Assembly (NCBI GenBank): GCA_021845725.1
Contig: JAJZVL010000018.1
Coordinates: 1 to 48,457 of the forward strand
Length of the DNA: 48,457 nucleotides
Direction of reading: 5' to 3'
From: Actinomycetes bacterium
GTDB taxonomy: Bacteria > Actinomycetota > Acidimicrobiia > Acidimicrobiales > RAAP-2
Shown here: positions 7,298 to 43,752 of the stretch, one piece after another
Layout of the letters: the number at the start of each line of letters is the position of its first letter
Position numbering within the stretch: the first letter of the stretch is position 1
Translations under genes and position numbers: made by a program
The notes under the pieces: model-generated
Database searches by the model: none
Seen by the model: the letters and a program-made list of their open reading frames with translations, nothing else
Told to the model about the DNA's origin: nothing

Positions 7298-7325
7298 GGA
7301 CCACCCTTCAGCCGTGGGTGCCAGC

Positions 7326-7331
7326 TACGGT
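7326..7331 (+). promoter_or_regulatory. -10 hexamer TACGGT for the CsrA-like gene
   Basis: TACGGT lies 33 nt before ATG 7365. The leader would be about 26 nt and contains a strong Shine-Dalgarno sequence, GGGAGGGG, about 8 nt before the start. This leadered architecture contrasts with the many leaderless genes nearby. Confidence 0.4.
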
Positions 7332-7364
7332 TGGAGCTCGAACATCAGGCGGGAGGGGCCGCGC

Positions 7365-8009
7365 ATGCTCGTGCTCAATCGCCGACCAGGCGAGTCGATC
7401 ATCATCGAACCGCACCTTCGGCTGACCGTCCTTTCGTTGACGGACCGCCGGGTCTGGATCGGGCTCAGCACACCGGGTGCCTTCCCCGAGCTGCGCGTGT
7501 CGGCGACCGTCGTGTCACCGGAGCAGGCGCGCCTCGAGATCGTCCCGACCTCGAGCATCGTGTTCGACGGCGACCGCGTCCGGATCACGACCGCGCCCCA
7601 AGGCGCGACCGCCACCACCGTACGAGCCGGGCTCGCCGTGGACCGCAGGCCAGGCGAGTCGGTCGAGGTTGGTGACGACATGTGGGTGGCGGTCGGTGCG
7701 ATCTCGAGGGGGAACCCGTCCCTCGAGTTCGGCGGCGATGCGATCGGCAGCACGTTCAGCGTCACGCTCATCCGGCCTGCCGGAAGCTACGTGCGCCTCG
7801 GGGTCGACGCCCCCGACCGCCGCGTCTATCGCGAGGAGCTCTGGAACGTCGTCCAGGCTCCTGGTGCGTCGGGCCTCGTGGAGGCTCGTCACGATCTCGA
7901 GCACCCCGAGGGCGGCACCGCGGTATCGGCCTCGGACGGGACCTCCCCGACCGCGACGGCGGTCGTGACGCTCGCGGCCAGGCTTCAGCCTGGCTCCCGG
8001 ACGAAGTAG
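7365..8009 (+). CDS. Tandem CsrA-like RNA-binding protein
   Basis: 214-aa protein made of repeated CsrA units. Residues 1-36 (MLVLNRRPGESIII, then LTVLSL, then RRVWIGLSTP) align with CsrA beta1-beta3, keeping Leu4 and Arg6 of the RNA-contact strand. A second beta1-like segment, LAVDRRPGESVEVGDD, begins at residue 90. Residues 131-164 align without gaps to CsrA beta2-alpha1: SVTLIRPAGSYVRLGVDAP then RRVYREELWNVVQ, which keeps the Arg-Glu-Glu of the HREEI motif. CsrA is normally a 60-75 aa homodimer whose GGA-binding site combines beta1 of one chain with beta5 of the other; here one chain seems to supply both. Residues 180-214 are a loosely structured tail. An SD sequence, GGGAGGGG, supports the start. 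The 3' end overlaps convergent glgB by 25 nt. The role is inferred to be post-transcriptional control; no flagellar gene is nearby. Confidence 0.82.
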   Translation: MLVLNRRPGESIIIEPHLRLTVLSLTDRRVWIGLSTPGAFPELRVSATVVSPEQARLEIVPTSSIVFDGDRVRITTAPQGATATTVRAGLAVDRRPGESVEVGDDMWVAVGAISRGNPSLEFGGDAIGSTFSVTLIRPAGSYVRLGVDAPDRRVYREELWNVVQAPGASGLVEARHDLEHPEGGTAVSASDGTSPTATAVVTLAARLQPGSRTK

Positions 8010-9901
8010 ACGCAGCTCAGCGGCGGAGCGACCATCGTGAGGGTGCACGGCCAGCCATGGGCCCGCGCCACTTGGGCGTTCGACGGTACCGGTTCGGCGT
8101 GTGACGGTACCCGTTGGGCGTGCAGACCGCCGAGGTTGCCGAGGCCGCTCCCCCCGTACTCGACCGCGTCGGAGTTCAGGCGCTCGCGCCAGAAGCCCGG
8201 AGCGGGCACGCCCACGAGCAGGTTGTCGCGGGGCACCGGCGTGAAATTGCAGACAACGAGCGCAACACGACCACGCGACGACCTGCGCAGGAAGCTCAGC
8301 ACGCTGATCTCGGCGTCTTCGTACTGCACCCACTCGAACCCCGCCGGGTCCGCATCGAGCTCGTGCAGCGCGGGCTCGCTGCGGTACAGCTCGTTCAGGT
8401 CGCGGATCCACCGGCGTACCCCGGCATGCCGGTCGTCATCGAGCAGCTCCCAGCGCAACCCCTCGTCGTGGTCCCACTCGCTCCAGTCCGCGAGCTCGGA
8501 CCCCATGAAGAGGAGCTTCTTCCCCGGCAGCCCGTACTGGTAGCCGTAGAGCAGCCGGAGGTTCGCGCGCTTCTGCCAGTCGTCACCCGGCATCTTCGCG
8601 AGCAGTGAACCCTTGCCGTGCACGACCTCGTCGTGGGAAAGCGGAAGGACGAAATTCTCGGTGAAGGCGTAGACCGCGCGGAAGGTCAGCTCGCCGTGGT
8701 GCCAACGGCGGTGGACCGGATCGCGTGCCATGTACCCGAGCGTGTCGTGCATCCAGCCCATGTCCCACTTGAACCCGAACCCGAGCCCCCCCCACTCGAC
8801 CGGCCGGGAGACCCCGCCCCAGGCGGTGGACTCCTCTGCGATGGTCTGAACGCCGGGGTGATCTGCGTAGACGCCGGCGTTGAGCTCACGCAGGAAGGCG
8901 ATCGCGTCGAGATCCTCGCGCCCGCCATAGGGGTTCGGATCCCACTCGCCCGCCTTACGCGAGTAGTCGAGGTACAGCATGGAGGCCACCGCGTCGACCC
9001 TCAGGCCGTCGGCGTGGTACGTGCGGATCCAGTGGTCTGCCGACGAGGAGAGGAAGCTCCGCACCTCGTGACGCCCATAGTTGAAGACGAGGCTGTTCCA
9101 GTCCGGATGGACGCCGCGGCGCGGGTCGGCGTGCTCGTAGAGGTGGGTACCGTCGAACGACGCGAGCGCGAACTCGTCGGAAGGGAAGTGGGACGGCACC
9201 CAGTCGAGGATGACGCCGATCCCCGCCTGGTGCAGCGCGTCGACCAGCGCCATGAAGTCCTGGGGTGCGCCGTACCGTGCGCTTGGCGCGAAGTAGCCCG
9301 TCGTCTGGTAGCCCCAGCTCCCGTAGAAGGGATGCTCCATCACAGGAAGGAGCTCGACGTGGGTGAACCCGCTGCTCCGCACGTGATCGACGAGCTGAGC
9401 TGCGAGCTCTCGGTACGTCAGCAGCTCGTGTGGCCTGCGAGGTGTCCGGCGCCAGCTGCCGAGGTGGACCTCGTACATCGAGATCGGCGAACGCAGCGTC
9501 TGGCGCTCTGCACGGGCCGCCATCCACTCCTGGTCGCCCCAGTCGTAGGCGAGGTCCCAGATCACCGACCCGGTCCGCGGAGGCACCTCGCAGAAGAACG
9601 CGAACGGGTCAGCCTTCTCGAGGACCGTGCCCTCGGCGGTCGTGATCGCGAACTTGTAGACCTGGCCCTTCCTGGCATGGCGGGCGACGCCCTCCCAGAT
9701 CCCCGAGCTCCCGCGCACCGAGAGCGGATCGGCGTCGCTGCGCCACCAGTTCCAGTCCCCGATGACCGACACGCCTCGGGCGCTTGGCGCCCACACGGCG
9801 AAGTGGACCCCTCCTGCGTCCAGAAGATGCGCTCCGAGCTTCTCCGCGAGGCGCCGGTGCGACCCCTCGTTGAACAAGAAGAGGTCGTCGTCGGTGATCA
9901 C
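7985..9901 (-). CDS. glgB: 1,4-alpha-glucan branching enzyme
   Basis: GH13 enzyme of 638 aa that introduces alpha-1,6 branches into linear alpha-1,4-glucan. Domain order is an N-terminal CBM48-like module (about 25-120), the catalytic barrel (about 140-500), and a C-terminal all-beta domain. Nucleophile Asp is in GLRVDAVASMLY, acid/base Glu in IAEESTAW, and stabilising Asp in LSHDEVVHGK. It starts with GTG overlapping the malQ stop (GTGA) and is the last gene of the GlgE cluster, branching the linear glucan made by GlgE. The C-terminal tail of about 30 residues after SGLGNLGGLHAQ is longer than usual and overlaps the convergent CsrA-like gene. Confidence 0.97.
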   Translation of the reverse strand: MITDDDLFLFNEGSHRRLAEKLGAHLLDAGGVHFAVWAPSARGVSVIGDWNWWRSDADPLSVRGSSGIWEGVARHARKGQVYKFAITTAEGTVLEKADPFAFFCEVPPRTGSVIWDLAYDWGDQEWMAARAERQTLRSPISMYEVHLGSWRRTPRRPHELLTYRELAAQLVDHVRSSGFTHVELLPVMEHPFYGSWGYQTTGYFAPSARYGAPQDFMALVDALHQAGIGVILDWVPSHFPSDEFALASFDGTHLYEHADPRRGVHPDWNSLVFNYGRHEVRSFLSSSADHWIRTYHADGLRVDAVASMLYLDYSRKAGEWDPNPYGGREDLDAIAFLRELNAGVYADHPGVQTIAEESTAWGGVSRPVEWGGLGFGFKWDMGWMHDTLGYMARDPVHRRWHHGELTFRAVYAFTENFVLPLSHDEVVHGKGSLLAKMPGDDWQKRANLRLLYGYQYGLPGKKLLFMGSELADWSEWDHDEGLRWELLDDDRHAGVRRWIRDLNELYRSEPALHELDADPAGFEWVQYEDAEISVLSFLRRSSRGRVALVVCNFTPVPRDNLLVGVPAPGFWRERLNSDAVEYGGSGLGNLGGLHAQRVPSHAEPVPSNAQVARAHGWPCTLTMVAPPLSCVYFVREPG

Positions 9902-11831
9902 CCGTCCTCCTCCTGCCTCAGCGCGTCGATCCTCTGCAGCGCCGTGGCAACCTCTTCGTCTTCGAAGATCTCTTCGAGCGTCCTGGCCGCCCGGTGCCGC
10001 CAGTTGCCGGTCTCTGGACCGGTCCCGGGGCGGTTGTGCGGCACGCGCTCGAGCCAGAGGTCCTCGACGTCGACGAGGAGGAGGCGCGCGGGACCGGCGG
10101 CGAGGTGGTCGAGGCTCGCGCGCAGGCCTCGGCGTGCGTCCCCGCCCAGTGCCTGGCGCCAGCTGGCGTGCATGGGTGCCTCCCAGTAGGTCACGAAGCG
10201 TGGCAGGTCATGGGTGCCGATGCTCGCCAGCGAGAGCTCGGGGGGATCGGGGGGCGGCGCGCCGGCAGAAGCCTCGAACTGCAGCACCCACGTTCGCAGC
10301 ATCCGGTCGTCGTGCATGCCGAGGCGGACCTCGTCGGGAACGGTGCCGAGGTCCTCCCCCACGATGGCCGTGCCCGAACGCTGTGCCTCGAGCGCGACGA
10401 TCGCCCGCAGCTCGTCGTCGCGGTAGCGGACGTACGCACCCTCGGTGGCGTCCGCGCCGGCCGGCACCCAGTACAGGCGGTACAGCCCCATCACATGGTC
10501 GAGGCGCAGGACCGATGCGTGTCGCATCGCATGGCGGAGCACCGCCACCACGTGGCGGTACCGCTGCTCCCGCAGGCCGCGGGGGTGCAGAGGGCGAAAC
10601 GACCATCGCTGGCCCCTGGCGAAGAAGGCGTCGGGGGGCGCCCCGCCTTCGACACCCAGGGCGAAGACTGTCGGCTCGAAGCTCGGGTCGAACCCCGACG
10701 GGTGCACCCCAATGGGGAGGTCGAGAAGCAGGTTGCCTCCAGCCGCAGCCAGCTGCCGCTCCGCGACCCACTGGGCGTAGAGGTGCGAGCGCGCGCGGTC
10801 ACCGTCGGGCACGGCCGCTCCACCGCTCGACGGGGTGCTCGTCTCCACGCGCTCGCCAGCCCGAAAGCGCGCGTAGGCAACCATCTCCGGCCGCGCACGG
10901 GCAAAGTCCTCGAGCTCCCTTCGACGCGGCGAAGGAGTGGCGAAGAGCGCCCGCGCCAGCGCGTCGAGCACCTGCCTGACGAGCGCCATCGAGGCGGAGT
11001 AGTCCACGAGCGCGTTGCGGCGGACCGCCGCCAGCGCGTCGGTGAAGGCATCCGACGCGAGCAGGTCGCGAGCCTCCGACGACGCCTCGAGCTCGGGGAG
11101 CTCGGTCGGATCGACGTAGAGCTCGTTCCACCCGAGCCTCGTCACCGGGAGGTAGGGGCTGATCTCGACCGGCTCCTCGTAGTAGGCGGGGTAAAGCGGC
11201 AGCGTGCCCAAGAGGTCCCCACCGAGGCGGCTCACCCAACGCGAGGTCTCGCGCAACGCGGGGTAGCTGCCCACCCCCCAGTCCGTTCTCGTCCGCATCG
11301 CCTGCACCGGGAGGAACGCGCCCCAGCCCCGCGCGGGAAGCGGACAGCGCGGGGCGACGACGACCATCGCCGACGCCTCGATCCCAGGACCCTCCACGCG
11401 CAGCTCGTGGTACCCGGCGGGCAGCAGGTCGACAGGCGAGCTGAGGTGCACCTCATAACGGTCCATCGACCTCCCCTCGACGCGTGCCGAGCCGAGCGGT
11501 CGCTGGATGGCCGCCATGAGCCGGGTCCGACGGGTCTCAGCGTCCTCTGCCTCGAGCACGAGCCAACAGTCCCGCGGGTGCACCGACCGCGGGAGGCCGA
11601 CCTCGATGGCCTGCGTGCCCGCCGCGGGCAGCGCGCACACGGGCTCGATCACCTGGGTGTGCTGGCGGAGGCGCTCCTCGCGTGCCGCCGAGGCGGGATC
11701 TGTCACCGGCGCACCGAGTGCGCTGAGCACCGCCGCCAGCACGTCCGCCGTCGCCTCGCGCACCTCGCCGGAGGCGTTGACGTAGGCAGTCTCGACCTCG
11801 TAGAGCTGTGCGAGGGTCTCGAGCTCTCCGC

Positions 11832-11835
<4 letters not shown>
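9898..11835 (-). CDS. malQ: 4-alpha-glucanotransferase (amylomaltase)
   Basis: GH77 enzyme of 645 aa that disproportionates maltodextrins by transferring glucan segments. The N-terminal region of about 150 residues before the barrel (LAQLYEVETAYVNASGEVRE onward) is typical of the long actinobacterial and enterobacterial MalQ form. Catalytic Asp is in LRLDHVMGLYRLYW, Glu in IVGEDLGTVP, and the transition-state Asp in GTHDLPRF. ATG at 11835 overlaps the treS-mak stop as ATGA; upstream in-frame codons belong to that gene. Within this cluster it would adjust chain length of glucans made by GlgE before branching by GlgB. Confidence 0.95.
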
Positions 11836-15154
<3,319 letters not shown>

Positions 15155-15158
<4 letters not shown>

Positions 15159-17239
15159 GCGGCCTCCCGCGCCAGCTGCCTCGAGCTTCCGTCGATCGCC
15201 AGGACGTGCGCAGGGACGGCCGCGGGGTCGAGGATCACGAAGCTCCGCGCTCCTTCCCAGCGATAGCGGGCGTCGGTGAGCAGGTCGTGCGCCTCGATCG
15301 GCTCTCCGGGATCGCGGCCGAGCTCTCCCAGCTCGACCCAGCCCGACTGCGAGTACCTCGGATCGAGGTTCACCACGACGAGCACGATGTCGTCGCCCCA
15401 GGTCTTCGAGTACGCGATCAGCTGGTCGTTGTCCGTCGGGTGGAACTGCAGGGTGTCGTTGCGCTGGAGCGCCGGATGAGCACGGCGCAGCGCGTTCAGG
15501 CGCGCCATCAGCGGCGCGAGGCTTCCAGCCGAGTCGAGGTCCCAATGACGTACGGCGTACTTCTCAGAACGGAGGTACTCCTCGGAGCCCGGTGCGCGCG
15601 CCTGGTGCTCTTGGAGCTCGAACGCAGGACCGTACACCCCATAGCTCGCCGCGAGGGTCGCTGCGAGGACGAGGCGGGAGACGAACGCAGCCCTCCCTCC
15701 CGTCTGCAGGGCCTCGGTGAGGATGTCGGGCGTGTTCGGCCAAAAGCTCGGTCGGAAGAAGTCCGCGACCTGGGCGAGCTCGCTCATGTACGACTCGATC
15801 TCCCACTTCGAGTTGCGCCATGCGAAATAGGTGTACGACTGGGTGAACCCGAGCTTCGCCAGCCGGTACATGACGGCGGGACGGGTGAACGCCTCGGCGA
15901 GGAAGATCGTCTCGGGATGCTCCTCCTTCACCGTGGCGAGCAGCCACTCCCAGAACGCGAAGGGCTTCGTGTGCGGGTTGTCGACGCGGAACACCCGCAC
16001 GCCGTGGCCGATCCAGAAGCGCACCACGTCGCCCAGCGCGAGCCACAGCCCCCACCAGTCCTCCGTCTCGAAGTCGAGAGGATAGATGTCCTCGTAGCGC
16101 TTTGGCGGGTTCTCCGCGTAGCGGATCGACCCGTCAGGGTGCTGGCGGAACCACTCAGGGTGCTCTCGCACCCATGGATGGTCCGGCGAGCACTGGAAGG
16201 CAAGGTCCATCGCGAGCGCGATCCCGCGATCCCTGGCCGCAGCGACCAGCGCGTCGAAGTCCGCGAGCGTGCCGAGCCCAGGATCGATCGCGCAGTGGCC
16301 GCCGTGCGACGACCCGATCGCCCACGGGCTCCCTGGGTCCTCGGGTCCGGGTTCGGTTGCTCCGTCCGCGCCCTTGCGCGCCGTCGTGCCGATGGGGTGG
16401 ACGGGTGGCAGGTACAGCACGTCTGCACCAAGCCATGCAACGTAGTCGAGGCGGGCCTGCACGTCGGCGAGCGTGCCCGGACGCCCTGGGTCCGCGGACG
16501 CGCCCCGCGGGAACATCTCGTACCAGGTGGAGAAGCGCGCGAGGGCGGGGTCCACGACCACCGTGCGCACCTCCGAGGTGGTCGCGTCCGACGTCACCCC
16601 GTATCGCCGGACGAGCTCGCTCAAGCGCGCATTGCCGAGCATGCCGCCGACGGTCCCGTCGGGCGCGAGCTCCCCGCCGTCGCCCACGGCCGGCGACGCC
16701 AGTCCCTCGGTGGCTCCCGCGAGACACTCTGCGGCGGCAGCGAGCAACCTCCTGTCGGTGCCGCTCGCTCGAGAAGCGGACCTCGCGAGCAGCCCGGCCC
16801 CGACTGCCAGCTCCCCACGGACGTCCTGGCCCGCGTCGGCACGTGCATGGAGGTCCCTCAGCCACGTCCCGTACCTGTCCACCGCCGCGCGCACGGCGAA
16901 GCGGTAGCGGCCCAGCTCCGTGGCACGAAACGTCCCCTTCCAACGGTCATTGCCGAGCGGCACCATCTCGATCGTGGACCACGACGCGTCACCGTCACGC
17001 TGGACGCGCACGTCGCACACGAGGAGGTCGTGGCCGTCTGCGAAGGCAGTGGCTTCCACGACCACGGCATCTCCCACCACGGCCTTCGCGGGGAACCGGC
17101 CGCAGTCGACCGTCGGGCGGACGTCCTCGACCGCTGCACGGCGGAGGACGCCAGCCGGCCTCACCACCGGCACGTGCGTGCCGTCGGAGACCGCTTCCTT
17201 GTCGGGACCGTAGAGCCTGCGGGCGCGCGTTGTCGCCAT
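15155..17239 (-). CDS. glgE: Maltose-1-phosphate maltosyltransferase
   Basis: GH13_3 enzyme of 694 aa that extends linear alpha-1,4-glucan with maltosyl units from maltose-1-phosphate and releases phosphate. The N-terminal beta-domain (about 35-120) and helical insert precede the barrel. Conserved GlgE segments include FSTWYEMFPRGAS, SPDHPWVREHPEWF and ENPPKRYEDIYPLDFE. The nucleophile Asp is in FRVDNPHTKPF and the acid/base Glu in FLAEAFTRPAVMY. The start is set by a strong SD (GGGGAGAG) ending about 10 nt before ATG 17239. It lies 28 nt after aidB and overlaps treS-mak by 4 nt, as the first enzyme gene of the glucan module. Confidence 0.97.
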
Positions 17240-17267: not shown

Positions 17268-18986
17268 TCAGCCGGACGCGTGCGCCCGGGCGACCCGGCT
17301 GAGCGCCGACTGCGGGCCCCCTTCGTCCTCCGAGGCCGCCATCCTGAGCTCGGTGGCACCCGCTTCCACCTGGGCCCGCTCCATGACGGCGTGCAGGTCC
17401 ACCCGCGAAGAGAGCTCGCCGAAGGTGCCACCATGGTCATCGTCCAGTCTCGACGACAAGAACGCATCCGCGACCGCGGGCGCCCCGTGCCGGAGGAGGA
17501 GCGACGCCTGGAGCGCGAGCACCAGGCGGCGGGCGAGGCGCCGGGCGCGCACCTCGAGATCGCCCGTGTCCGCGAGCTCTTCTCGGAGCGCCTCGAGCGC
17601 ACGACCGAGGCGAGCGTCTTCACCCGACGCGACCGCGACCTCGTCGACGAGGGCGTCCATGCTCTCGGGGCACGTCGCCACCGCTCGGAGCACGTCGAGC
17701 GCCGCGACGTTGCCCGAACCCTCCCAGATCGAGTTCACCGGCGCCTCACGGTAGAGACGGGGCATCTGCGACTCCTCTACGTACCCGTTGCCCCCGAGGC
17801 ATTCGAGCGCCTCGGCAGCGTGCACCGGGGCCCGCTTGCAGATCCAGTACTTTGCCGCAGGAAGCGCGATCCTGCGCAAGGCGGCCTCAGCTTCGTCACC
17901 TGCGGCCGCGCGGTCCGTCGCAGCCGCGACACGCAGGCTGAGCAGCGTTGCCGCTTCGGACTCGATCACCAGGTCCGCAAGGACGTTGGCCATGAGCGGC
18001 TGGTCGGCGAGGAGCGCTCCGAACGCCCGGCGGTGGCGGGCGTGATGGACGGCCTGGACAACGCCCCATCGCATCCCCGCAGCGCTTGCGGTCATCGCGT
18101 CGAGCCGCGTCGCCGAGACCATCTCCATGATCGTGCGAATTCCTCGGCCCTCTTCGCCCACGAGCCAGCCGAACGCGCCGTCGTACTCCACCTCCGCCGT
18201 CGCGTTGGAGCGGTTCCCGAGCTTGTCCTTCAGCCGCTCCAACCGGATGGCGTTTCGCTCGCCGCCCGGAAGCACGCGTGGCACGGCGTAGCACGACTGG
18301 CCACCGGGCGCTCGAGCCAGGACGAGGAAGACGTCGGACATCGGCGCCGACGTGAACCACTTGTGCCCGACGAGCCGGGAGCCGCCGTCGCCGGCCGGCG
18401 CAGCGATCGTTGCGTTGGCTCTGAGGTCGGAGCCGCCCTGCTTCTCGGTCAACGACATCCCTGCGACGAGGCCGCGCTTGGTCTGTGGGTCGCGCAACCC
18501 GAAGTCGTAGACGGCCGACTCGAGCAGCGGCTCGAAGCGCGCCGCGAGGTCGGGAGCGTGACGGAGCGCCGGGACCGCTGCGTAGGTCATCGAGATCGGG
18601 CACAGATGCCCGGCATCCGTCTGCCCCCACACGAGGAGCTTCGCCGTGCGCGCGGTGTGCGCCATACGCCTCGGTGTTCGCCACGCTGCGGCGTGCAGGC
18701 CCTGGGCAACGGCGAGCTGCATCAGCTCGTGCCAGTAGGGGTGGAACTCCACCTCGTCGACCCGGTTGCCGAAACGGTCGTGGGTGTGCAGCACCGGCGG
18801 GCGTTCGTTCACCACCCTGGCGAGCTCCGCGACATGCGCCGACCCTGCGAGCCTTCCCACCTCGTGGAGCTCGGGCTCCGCCCACCCGGCGCCGAAGGCG
18901 TGCAGCCCCGCGAGCAGCGCCGGGTCCGCTGCCACGTCGTAGTCGACGAGAACAGGTGGCTGGTTGGTCACTTCGTGCGTCTTCAC
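17268..18986 (-). CDS. aidB: AidB-type acyl-CoA dehydrogenase family protein
   Basis: Flavoprotein of the AidB branch of acyl-CoA dehydrogenases, 572 aa (E. coli AidB is about 541). Long stretches match E. coli AidB, including LCPISMTYAAVPAL, MSLTEKQGGSDLRAN, LVGHKWFTSAPMSD, NAIRLERLKDKLGNRSNA and YREAPVNSIWEGSGN. The N-terminal NQPPVL region is also characteristic. In E. coli it binds DNA and is part of the adaptive response to alkylation; enzymatic activity is weak and its natural substrate unsettled. The start is GTG with an SD AGGAGGTGA close upstream and a -10 TAGCCT at 19010-19015. It lies 28 nt before glgE and may share its transcript, though no functional link is known. Confidence 0.95.
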   Translation of the reverse strand: MKTHEVTNQPPVLVDYDVAADPALLAGLHAFGAGWAEPELHEVGRLAGSAHVAELARVVNERPPVLHTHDRFGNRVDEVEFHPYWHELMQLAVAQGLHAAAWRTPRRMAHTARTAKLLVWGQTDAGHLCPISMTYAAVPALRHAPDLAARFEPLLESAVYDFGLRDPQTKRGLVAGMSLTEKQGGSDLRANATIAAPAGDGGSRLVGHKWFTSAPMSDVFLVLARAPGGQSCYAVPRVLPGGERNAIRLERLKDKLGNRSNATAEVEYDGAFGWLVGEEGRGIRTIMEMVSATRLDAMTASAAGMRWGVVQAVHHARHRRAFGALLADQPLMANVLADLVIESEAATLLSLRVAAATDRAAAGDEAEAALRRIALPAAKYWICKRAPVHAAEALECLGGNGYVEESQMPRLYREAPVNSIWEGSGNVAALDVLRAVATCPESMDALVDEVAVASGEDARLGRALEALREELADTGDLEVRARRLARRLVLALQASLLLRHGAPAVADAFLSSRLDDDHGGTFGELSSRVDLHAVMERAQVEAGATELRMAASEDEGGPQSALSRVARAHASG

Positions 18987-42153: not shown

Positions 42154-43752
42154 TCATTGGACCTCGCTCCCGCTGTGGACCAGCTCCTTCACTTCCTCGC
42201 CGTGCCTCTTGTGCGGCTGGTGGGCGAGGTAGACGACCGCGCCGATCACGAGGATCACGAACATCACCACCAGCGTCATCCAACCGTAGTTGAAGAGTGC
42301 CGCGCGCGGAGAGGTGAGCGCGCTCGGGAACACGATGTTCACGAGCATGCCCACGCCGTAGATCATGGCCACGATGTAGACGGGGTACGCCCATCGACCG
42401 AGATCGAACCCCGCAGGACGCCACCCTCGGATCCGGCCGATCAGCGCCCCGAGGACCACCATCTGGAAGGAAAGGTAGATCCCCGAGGTCGCGAACGACA
42501 CGAGGATGAACAGCGCGTTCACCTTGGCTGGATATGTGAAGAAGAGGATGTGGATCGGCTTGGCCGGCGTCGCCCGCGCGAGGAGGGCGAAGAGCGCGGG
42601 AAGCACCGTCGCGACCAGGACAGCCACCACGGGCGTCTTCGTCTGGCGCGAGATGCTCCGCAGCGCCCCGCTCGCCGGCAGCTGGCGGTCCCGCGCATAG
42701 CTGAACAGCACGCGCGACCCTGCGGCCTGCACCGAGAGGCCACAGGAGAAGAAGGCCAGGCAGATGAGCACGAGGACGGTGTCCGCCAACGCCGACGAGT
42801 GGATGTTGGACGAGATGATGTATGGCACGCCGCCCGTGATCACCTTGGAGAGGTTCGACCCGGGGATCGCGAGGGAGAGCCCGGCCACGAGGAGAAAGGA
42901 GGTGATCCCCCCCACGATCATCGTGGTGACCATCGCGCGGGGCACTCGGCGGCGCGCGTCGACCACCTCCTCGGCGATGTCGCCCGCAGACTCGAAGCCG
43001 TAGAAGATGTAGACGTTCGCGAGCACCGCGATGAGCGCGGCTCCGGGGAACCAGCTCCCTCCGAAGCTCACTCCGAAGGGGTTGTGGGCCACACGTGTGG
43101 TGCCGGCGGTCGAGTTCAGGTACCCGGCAGAATGGTGGAACCCCGCCACGGCGAGCAGCACGAAGACCCCGAAGGTGCCCAGGACCTCCACCCAGACGCC
43201 CCAGCGCGCGATGAGCGCCGTGTAGTTCACTCCGACGATGTTGATCGTCGCCTGGATCGCGATGAGCACGATGGTGCAGATGAAGATCACGTTCGCACTC
43301 GACGCTGTGAAGTGGGTCCCGAACCAGTTGTTGACGAGCGTGACGACGTAGCTCGTGATTCCGGTGTCCACCGACGCAACGGTGATGATCAGTGCCCACG
43401 CGTAGATCCACCCGACCCACCAGCCGTAGGAGGGGCCGACGACCCGTCGCGACCACTGGTACAGCGCGCCGGCGAGCGGATAGGAGCTTCCGAGCTCGGC
43501 GAAGACGAGCGAGACGAGGAGCTGGCCCGCGACGACGATCGGGATCGTCCAGATGTAGCGCGGACCGCCCGTCCCCACGCCGAGCGCGAACAACGAATAG
43601 ATGCCCACCACGGGTGACAGGTACGTGAACGCGACGCCGAAGTTCGAGAAGAAGCTGAGCGACCGACGCAGCTCCTGGTGGTAGCCGAAGCTCGCCAGCT
43701 GCTCGGTGTCAGGCGGTTGGCCGTGCTGTTCCGGCCCGACGTGCTGCGACAT
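42154..43752 (-). CDS. APC-family amino acid permease
   Basis: 532-aa transporter with 12 predicted helices. It shares the N-terminal block LASFGYHQELRRSLSFFSNFGVAFTYLSP with the permease at 35.3 kb, and has SYPLAGALYQWSRRVVGPSYGWWVGW and YGFESAGDIAEEVVDARRRVPRAM. This places it in the amino acid/choline/GABA (ACT) group; the substrate is unknown. The SD GGGGG precedes ATG 43752. Short repeats containing GATCGAC lie upstream. A universal stress protein gene follows in the same operon. Confidence 0.93.
   Translation of the reverse strand: MSQHVGPEQHGQPPDTEQLASFGYHQELRRSLSFFSNFGVAFTYLSPVVGIYSLFALGVGTGGPRYIWTIPIVVAGQLLVSLVFAELGSSYPLAGALYQWSRRVVGPSYGWWVGWIYAWALIITVASVDTGITSYVVTLVNNWFGTHFTASSANVIFICTIVLIAIQATINIVGVNYTALIARWGVWVEVLGTFGVFVLLAVAGFHHSAGYLNSTAGTTRVAHNPFGVSFGGSWFPGAALIAVLANVYIFYGFESAGDIAEEVVDARRRVPRAMVTTMIVGGITSFLLVAGLSLAIPGSNLSKVITGGVPYIISSNIHSSALADTVLVLICLAFFSCGLSVQAAGSRVLFSYARDRQLPASGALRSISRQTKTPVVAVLVATVLPALFALLARATPAKPIHILFFTYPAKVNALFILVSFATSGIYLSFQMVVLGALIGRIRGWRPAGFDLGRWAYPVYIVAMIYGVGMLVNIVFPSALTSPRAALFNYGWMTLVVMFVILVIGAVVYLAHQPHKRHGEEVKELVHSGSEVQ

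Follow-up and report, generated by a model that had tools for sequence, protein, structure and literature searches.

The window analysed here, the whole stretch of 48,457 nucleotides, carries at 7365-8009 on the forward strand a gene, tcsrA, for a tandem CsrA-family protein of 214 amino acids, recognised from its open reading frame, from Pfam and from its relatives. The ATG lies at 7365 and the stop codon at 8007-8009, and a good Shine-Dalgarno-like sequence, GGGAGGGG (7351-7358, forward strand; read from the sequence and similar in relatives of the glycogen-locus, or glg, class to which this copy belongs), has its last base 6 bases upstream of the ATG. A conserved element, GCCAGCTACGGTTG, occupies 7320-7333 on the forward strand and recurs at nine of ten glg-class genes, with GCCARCTACGGTTG about 45 nt upstream of nine of the ten, and similar sequence also precedes L065 and the flagellar-class member L064. 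Judged from its letters, this element may be a promoter with a -10-like TACGGT or a hairpin with a UACG loop. The sole other exact copy of CARCTACGGTTG in the genome is at 42281 on the reverse strand, inside a permease-like ORF of the window; with at most one mismatch there are 5 genome matches, against 58 for a reversed control pattern. Downstream, tcsrA converges with an ORF taken as glgB (7985-9901, reverse strand), and the 3' ends overlap by 25 nt (7985-8009); the preliminary description likewise has the gene end against the glycogen operon. The adjoining reverse-strand block (9898-15545) holds a malQ ORF (9898-12063) and a treS-maltokinase ORF (11832-15545), whose starts may be over-extended; all three names are by inspection, and the glgB/malQ/treS neighbourhood is kept at 10/10 glg-class loci. 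In L057 and L058 the tcsrA and glgB ORFs do not overlap, the window protein having a longer tail. Rfam models return a single tRNA only in the window.

The encoded protein comprises two 88-residue CsrA-like units, each with an extra beta-hairpin, followed by a disordered tail. Three of its segments match Pfam CsrA (PF02599), with 64.3 bits and an E of 9.8e-18 for the whole protein (gathering cut-off 27), and the NCBIfam single-domain csrA equivalogs, whose cut-offs are those of a single short chain, remain below threshold (PRK01712 61.6 against 73; TIGR00202 53.7 against 70.1). When the N unit (1-88) is compared with the C unit (89-176) by hhalign, residues 2-70 align without gaps to 90-158 at an offset of 88 (69 columns, E 7.1e-11, probability 97%), and a profile built from 30 conventional CsrA proteins of actinobacteria matches both units (E 1.2e-13 and 4.1e-13), over 1-41 in the N unit and over 90-169, with a 25-residue insertion, in the C unit. 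The N unit (7365-7628, forward strand), delimited by the Pfam stretch 1-39, the hhalign repeat and predicted strands, has an intact beta1-beta4 (1-39), the extra hairpin and a degenerate beta5 region (62-76). The C unit (7629-7892, forward strand), delimited by its hhalign match to conventional CsrA and by predicted strands and helix, has a degenerate beta1, the extra hairpin and an intact beta3-beta4-beta5-helix. The earlier proposal of tandem CsrA-like units in one polypeptide, to be checked by an HMM search for two or three CsrA matches, is thus borne out by the Pfam stretches and the internal repeat, and the second RRPGES-type beta1 that it named is present as LAVDRRPGES from residue 90. 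Two of its boundaries needed revision: the N-terminal match exists but extends through beta4 (1-39) rather than stopping at beta3 (1-36), and the C-terminal similarity is real (beta3-beta4-beta5-helix, 127-166) but belongs to a whole CsrA at 90-169 with a 25-residue insertion and not to two loose fragments. Chance likeness to RRPGES was ruled out by the Pfam E-value together with the hhalign repeat and CsrA profile matches, and a spurious ORF by relatives in which the protein is conserved and the tails vary. Fusion of two CsrA units in one chain is well supported, and on the sequence evidence the protein is a real, conserved variant of the known CsrA family with two units per chain and one conserved site. 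Among the open-literature matches listed, searched as titles and abstract openings, no report of a tandem or single-chain CsrA was found.

AlphaFold2, run with 13 sequences, yields a confident beta-rich model of the window protein, with 124/214 residues at pLDDT of at least 90, a mean pLDDT of 75 in the linker (81-90) and pLDDT below 50 in the tail (173-212). Strands in the N unit are placed at 2-6, 11-14, 18-26, 29-36, 40-51, 54-60, 62-68 and 71-76, and their spacing is equal in both halves at offset 88 up to residue 60 versus 148. A model of the flagellar member L064 has a near-identical strand order, with a C-terminal helix at 157-171 that is longer than the one at 157-164 in the window protein; strand boundaries are CsrA-like in both, and the two single-chain models reach pTM of 0.71 and 0.75 with their disordered tails included. 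Foldseek against PDB chains returned nothing at E of 0.001 or below for either model (best E 0.15 and 0.084), and no CsrA chain was among the best 50 of 414 and best 50 of 397 matches; this chain-wise comparison is a weak test, as CsrA strands swap between chains. From homology and strand order we infer a CsrA-type swapped fold for the tandem protein.

CsrA is described as homodimeric and as having two RNA sites (PMC7652899); each site brings strand beta1 of one chain together with strand beta5 of its partner, and L4 and R44 are critical residues there (PMC7652899, PMC7829508). In the tandem protein, the first half of what would be site I is N-unit beta1, LVLNRR (L4, R6, R7; 7368-7385, forward strand), which is LVLNRR or LVLRRR in 30/30 tandem proteins, and the second half is C-unit beta5, RVYREELW (7821-7844, forward strand), where R156 corresponds to CsrA R44; the L4, R6 and R44 equivalents are invariant in 30/30, and R156, E158 and W160 are conserved in 19/19 alignment rows. 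The reciprocal site II would combine C-unit beta1, LAVDRR (7632-7649, forward strand), which is variable among tandem proteins (R94 in 14/19 rows), with the N-unit beta5 equivalent SIVFDGDRV (7554-7580, forward strand), placed by the register of the hhalign repeat. Here the R44 equivalent is D68 in the window protein; across the 30 tandem proteins it is acidic (Asp or Glu) in 22, Val in three, Gly in two, Ala in one and Arg in two (L017 and L150). These 30 rows represent 29 different proteins, since L148 is identical to L021, and are drawn from two families of one order. One complete beta1/beta5 set of RNA-binding residues, split between the units, is therefore present per protein in 30/30, and the two equivalent sites that characterise CsrA are not seen in the sequence, the second being unconserved. 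The suggestion that the N-terminal beta1 and C-terminal YREEL make one intact site while the other pair is degraded is upheld by these counts, and an asymmetric site with one conserved combination of halves is well supported at the level of sequence; the conservation is compatible with N-beta1/C-beta5 pairing within one chain or between two. As only this pairing is intact, an asymmetric pseudo-dimer is argued below. Binding of RNA by tandem CsrA is likely.

Tandem proteins fall into a flagellar class of 20 and a glg-locus class of 10, the window copy included, and in an unrooted tree a branch with support of 100/100 separates the glg class from the other tandem proteins. In 19/20 cases fliW lies within the stretch examined around the flagellar-class gene, about 9 kb away in G003 and G006. 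The remaining one, L150 (G626), has no fliW within 14 kb of the tandem gene, and it is assigned to this class by its kinship, by a sigma-factor match close by and by a conserved 385-aa neighbour. A second tandem gene of the window's own genome (G000:C48:17458-17958, reverse strand) adjoins fliW (18081-18422) on a contig that also encodes flagellin, FlgK, FliL, MotA, FlbD, a sigma factor and FlhA. Across 13 genomes of the same genus, 32/32 PF02599 matches lie inside tandem genes, with at least one in 12/13 genomes, and this search revealed no separate conventional CsrA; a glg-class gene is present in 10/13, the own genome counted. Full-length tandem matches occur in 14/172 genomes of the family, namely 12/13 in the window genus together with G019 and G023, and 7 further genomes match the last part of the tandem profile only, as conventional CsrA would. 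In a sample of the order, where scoring was confined to the few best candidates of each genome, 10/397 genomes have full-length tandem matches, nine of which belong to f101, a second family, and 76/86 matching genomes have partial matches only. CsrA matches are found in 73/396 sampled genomes of the phylum, and the 30 conventional proteins taken from these are single units of 62-98 aa; to call CsrA uncommon in actinobacteria, as had been done for this locus, was thus too strong.

The two classes also differ at the position of CsrA Asn55, without which CsrA does not bind FliW fully (PMC7829508). Its equivalent, defined as R44+11, is Asn in 20/20 flagellar-class versus 0/10 glg-class proteins; in the window protein it is Gly167 (codon at 7863-7865, forward strand). 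Asn stands there in 21/30 conventional proteins, a set chosen without regard to FliW. Flagellin-type and FliW matches are present in 7/13 same-genus genomes, all 7 of which have the flagellar class, although G006 has a weak flagellin match (6.4e-13), comparable to the second matches in other genomes. Neither flagellin nor FliW was detected in the other 6/13 drafts, from all of which the flagellar class is absent; these absences are provisional because the drafts are 58-93% complete. The glg class is retained in 5/6 of these genomes as the only CsrA found there, and in the sixth, G002, no tandem gene was found. The residues and gene contents together make it appear that the window copy has left the FliW circuit.

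The RNA partners of the flagellar class can be approached through leader sequences. Eighteen tandem-CsrA genomes have a Flagellin_N match, and flagellin leaders were examined in 13 of them, that of G898 being unreadable. G006, G019, G023, G806 and G853 were left out, as was G529 from the conventional set, for matches that were weak or truncated at the end of a contig. The motif CA-N-GGA-N-G (CANGGANG) occurs 39-48 nt before the ATG in 10/12 readable tandem-CsrA genomes, being missing from the leaders of G005 and G626, and 33-57 nt before the ATG in 6/6 conventional-CsrA genomes examined. It sits on at least 4 contiguous pairs in 7/12 and 6/6, respectively; the hairpins of the own genome (G000) and G004 have 2 pairs beside the loop followed by an A.C mismatch, and that of G913 has 3 contiguous pairs. 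In the conventional-CsrA leaders (L113, L172, L173, L177, L179 and L183) stems of up to 11 contiguous pairs are seen. Motif plus at least 4 pairs arises in about 0.35% of shuffled leaders and at 1/221 gene starts in 19 stretches (ORFs of at least 150 aa). Among 15 distinct flagellin hairpins, 89.2% of stem cells pair, and the covariation score was reached by 0/500 shuffles, with slid controls at a maximum of 0.24 versus 0.83; the count of double-sided pair changes, reached by 206/500 shuffles, is unremarkable. Loop invariance in this alignment is by construction, because the alignment was chosen by motif; stem pairing is not.

A second leader with the same features precedes flbD, which was found in 7/14 stretches searched (leaders in L071, L074, L075, L076, L078, L079 and L080). 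The strict CsrA-type motif stands about 32-37 nt before flbD in 6/7, and the seventh leader (G006) has UAAGGACG in a hairpin; the covariation score was reached by 0/500 shuffles and the double-sided changes by 115/500. An RNA model trained on flagellin leaders alone recovered the flbD leaders of G003 and G005. In 13 same-genus genomes this model gave 23 matches, comprising 4 flagellin leaders (all from the training set, of which the leader of G010 was not returned), 2 flbD leaders and 17 others, among which no convincing shared leader was seen; an orthologous trio (G007, G008 and G012) looks like coding conservation. Given the leader motifs and covarying hairpins, the flagellar class very likely continues to serve as a CsrA for flagellin and flbD mRNAs, and flbD is a likely second target.

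For the glg class, the preliminary description had pointed to the adjacent glycogen genes as possible targets. Regulation of glgC by CsrA is the classical precedent in E. coli (PMC7652899), and the 10/10 synteny would suit a post-transcriptional role of this kind. However, tcsrA and the glg genes are convergent, and within the window there is neither a CANGGANG hairpin with at least 4 pairs nor ACANGGANGT. The relatives' loci contain 7 isolated strict hairpin matches in 5/9 loci, one of them upstream of the treS start (L058), but these are common to no two loci, and a shared glg leader hairpin, sought in the window and the 9 relatives' loci, was accordingly rejected. Glycogen control is an attractive guess that these data do not support, and we regard it as unlikely; no glg-class target emerged from the window, the relatives' loci or the RNA-model search of 13 genomes.

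Taken together, these data are best accommodated by a model, to which we assign a probability of roughly 70%, in which the tandem protein is a single-chain CsrA pseudo-dimer with one site, of flagellar origin, whose glg-side duplicate lacks the FliW contact. This model proposes that one polypeptide, with its two hairpin-enlarged units, supplies both halves of the CsrA dimer, such that N-unit beta1 and C-unit beta5 would form one functional site for a GGA hairpin, with GCACGGACGC as a candidate ligand of site I, and the reciprocal site would have decayed. The fusion probably originated within flagellar clusters, as their csrA, and there the protein would bind the hairpins of the flagellin and flbD leaders and would likely be antagonised by FliW via the retained Asn55. 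A duplicate may then have moved beside the glg genes and subsequently lost the FliW contact, a direction that goes beyond the unrooted tree, and the glg-class copy may persist where flagellin and FliW are undetectable as a FliW-independent RNA regulator. What the computation shows is the homology, the internal repeat, the conservation, the gene contexts and the leader hairpins; strand pairing, RNA binding, single valency, the effects of FliW and the direction of the duplication are inferred. Counting against the model are the lack of a CsrA chain among the best 50 Foldseek matches per model, the short stem of the own genome's flagellin hairpin, the flagellin leaders of G005 and G626 without the motif, the site II Arg of L017 and L150, the conventional proteins without Asn55 and the higher dN/dS of some glg-class pairs given below.

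An alternate scenario, rather unlikely in our estimation, is that the tandem protein dimerises in trans, with N-beta1 and C-beta5 meeting across chains to give two intact sites and so preserving CsrA bivalency. Bridging CsrA uses two GGA sites, as described in PMC7652899, and in five of six window-genus flagellin leaders the leader motif is accompanied by a second GGA at the Shine-Dalgarno (CAAGGA), which counts against single valency, as a bivalent CsrA would want two. However, CANGGA is found at the Shine-Dalgarno of 0/6 readable f101 leaders, an absence of little weight given that only 2/6 conventional leaders have it, and since conventional-CsrA genomes mostly do without it too, these counts decide nothing on valency. 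The confident single-chain models also argue against a trans dimer, though oligomers would still be compatible with them. It is very improbable that the tandem protein instead behaves like RsmN, with the insertion undoing the strand swap so that each unit folds alone around a site of its own. The extra hairpin in each unit is reminiscent of RsmN, in which an alpha-helix insertion between beta2 and beta3 is described as abolishing the swap (PMC3791407), but the N unit is without the beta5 Arg in 28/30 proteins and the C unit without a conserved beta1. The notion that the glg-class protein has ceased to bind RNA and is drifting as a remnant of the flagellar copy, which we consider improbable, draws on the lack of a shared CsrA hairpin at glg loci, on the lost FliW contact and on dN/dS, which is 0.56-0.73 in three pairs of close relatives that differ by few changes. 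Conversely, dN/dS is 0.21-0.35 in the five more diverged of the eight pairs, the L4, R6 and R44 equivalents are invariant in 10/10 glg-class proteins, and the class is kept in 5/6 same-genus genomes without detectable flagellin or FliW.

Set against known systems, the proposed single-chain pseudo-dimer shares with CsrA/RsmA (PF02599) the beta1-beta4 sequence, the L4, R6 and R44 residues and, in the flagellar class, the GGA hairpins of flagellin leaders and the proximity of fliW. It differs from the homodimer in having two units per chain, an extra hairpin per unit and one conserved site, and the window copy further lacks the Asn55 contact. RsmN (RsmF) of Pseudomonas, as described in PMC3791407, is likewise a rearranged CsrA paralogue with an insertion and a retained Arg44, but it is a single unit (71-residue construct), its insertion is an alpha helix that separates beta2 from beta3, and its dimer has two sites. 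The flagellar class resembles the FliW-CsrA checkpoint of Bacillus and Campylobacter, as outlined in PMC7829508 and PMC7652899, in fliW proximity, the Asn55 extension and leader sites, except that CsrA is fused here and the window paralogue appears to be outside the circuit. A parallel for valency is offered by dimers of E. coli CsrA in which one of the polypeptides carries R44A (Mercante 2009, cited in PMC7652899). These have one functional site per dimer, as tandem CsrA would; they are a laboratory construct, whereas tandem CsrA is natural and covalent. The need for both sites has been argued from those engineered dimers (PMC7652899), so that a natural single-chain CsrA with one conserved site would make the two-site requirement directly testable. 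The paralogue pair would also illustrate clearly how a regulator can part from its protein antagonist, the FliW-contact residue being lost in the copy found where flagellin and FliW are not. A more tentative extension, to which we give somewhat less than an even chance, is that a naturally monovalent, covalently closed CsrA left the FliW checkpoint, shed the contact with its antagonist and now serves on its own as a metabolic RNA regulator in the absence of flagella genes; if so, bivalency would be dispensable in nature.

Two minor observations concern the flagellar class. L148 lies on a 6-kb contig (G853:C55) and is identical to L021 though its genome is of another family, and may represent a binning error or recent transfer. 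In the own genome, FlhA is followed by a 385-aa protein with no Pfam match (L071:8001-9158, forward strand), relatives of which lie near flagellar-class tcsrA genes in two families; it is possibly FlhF-like, although this is a guess.
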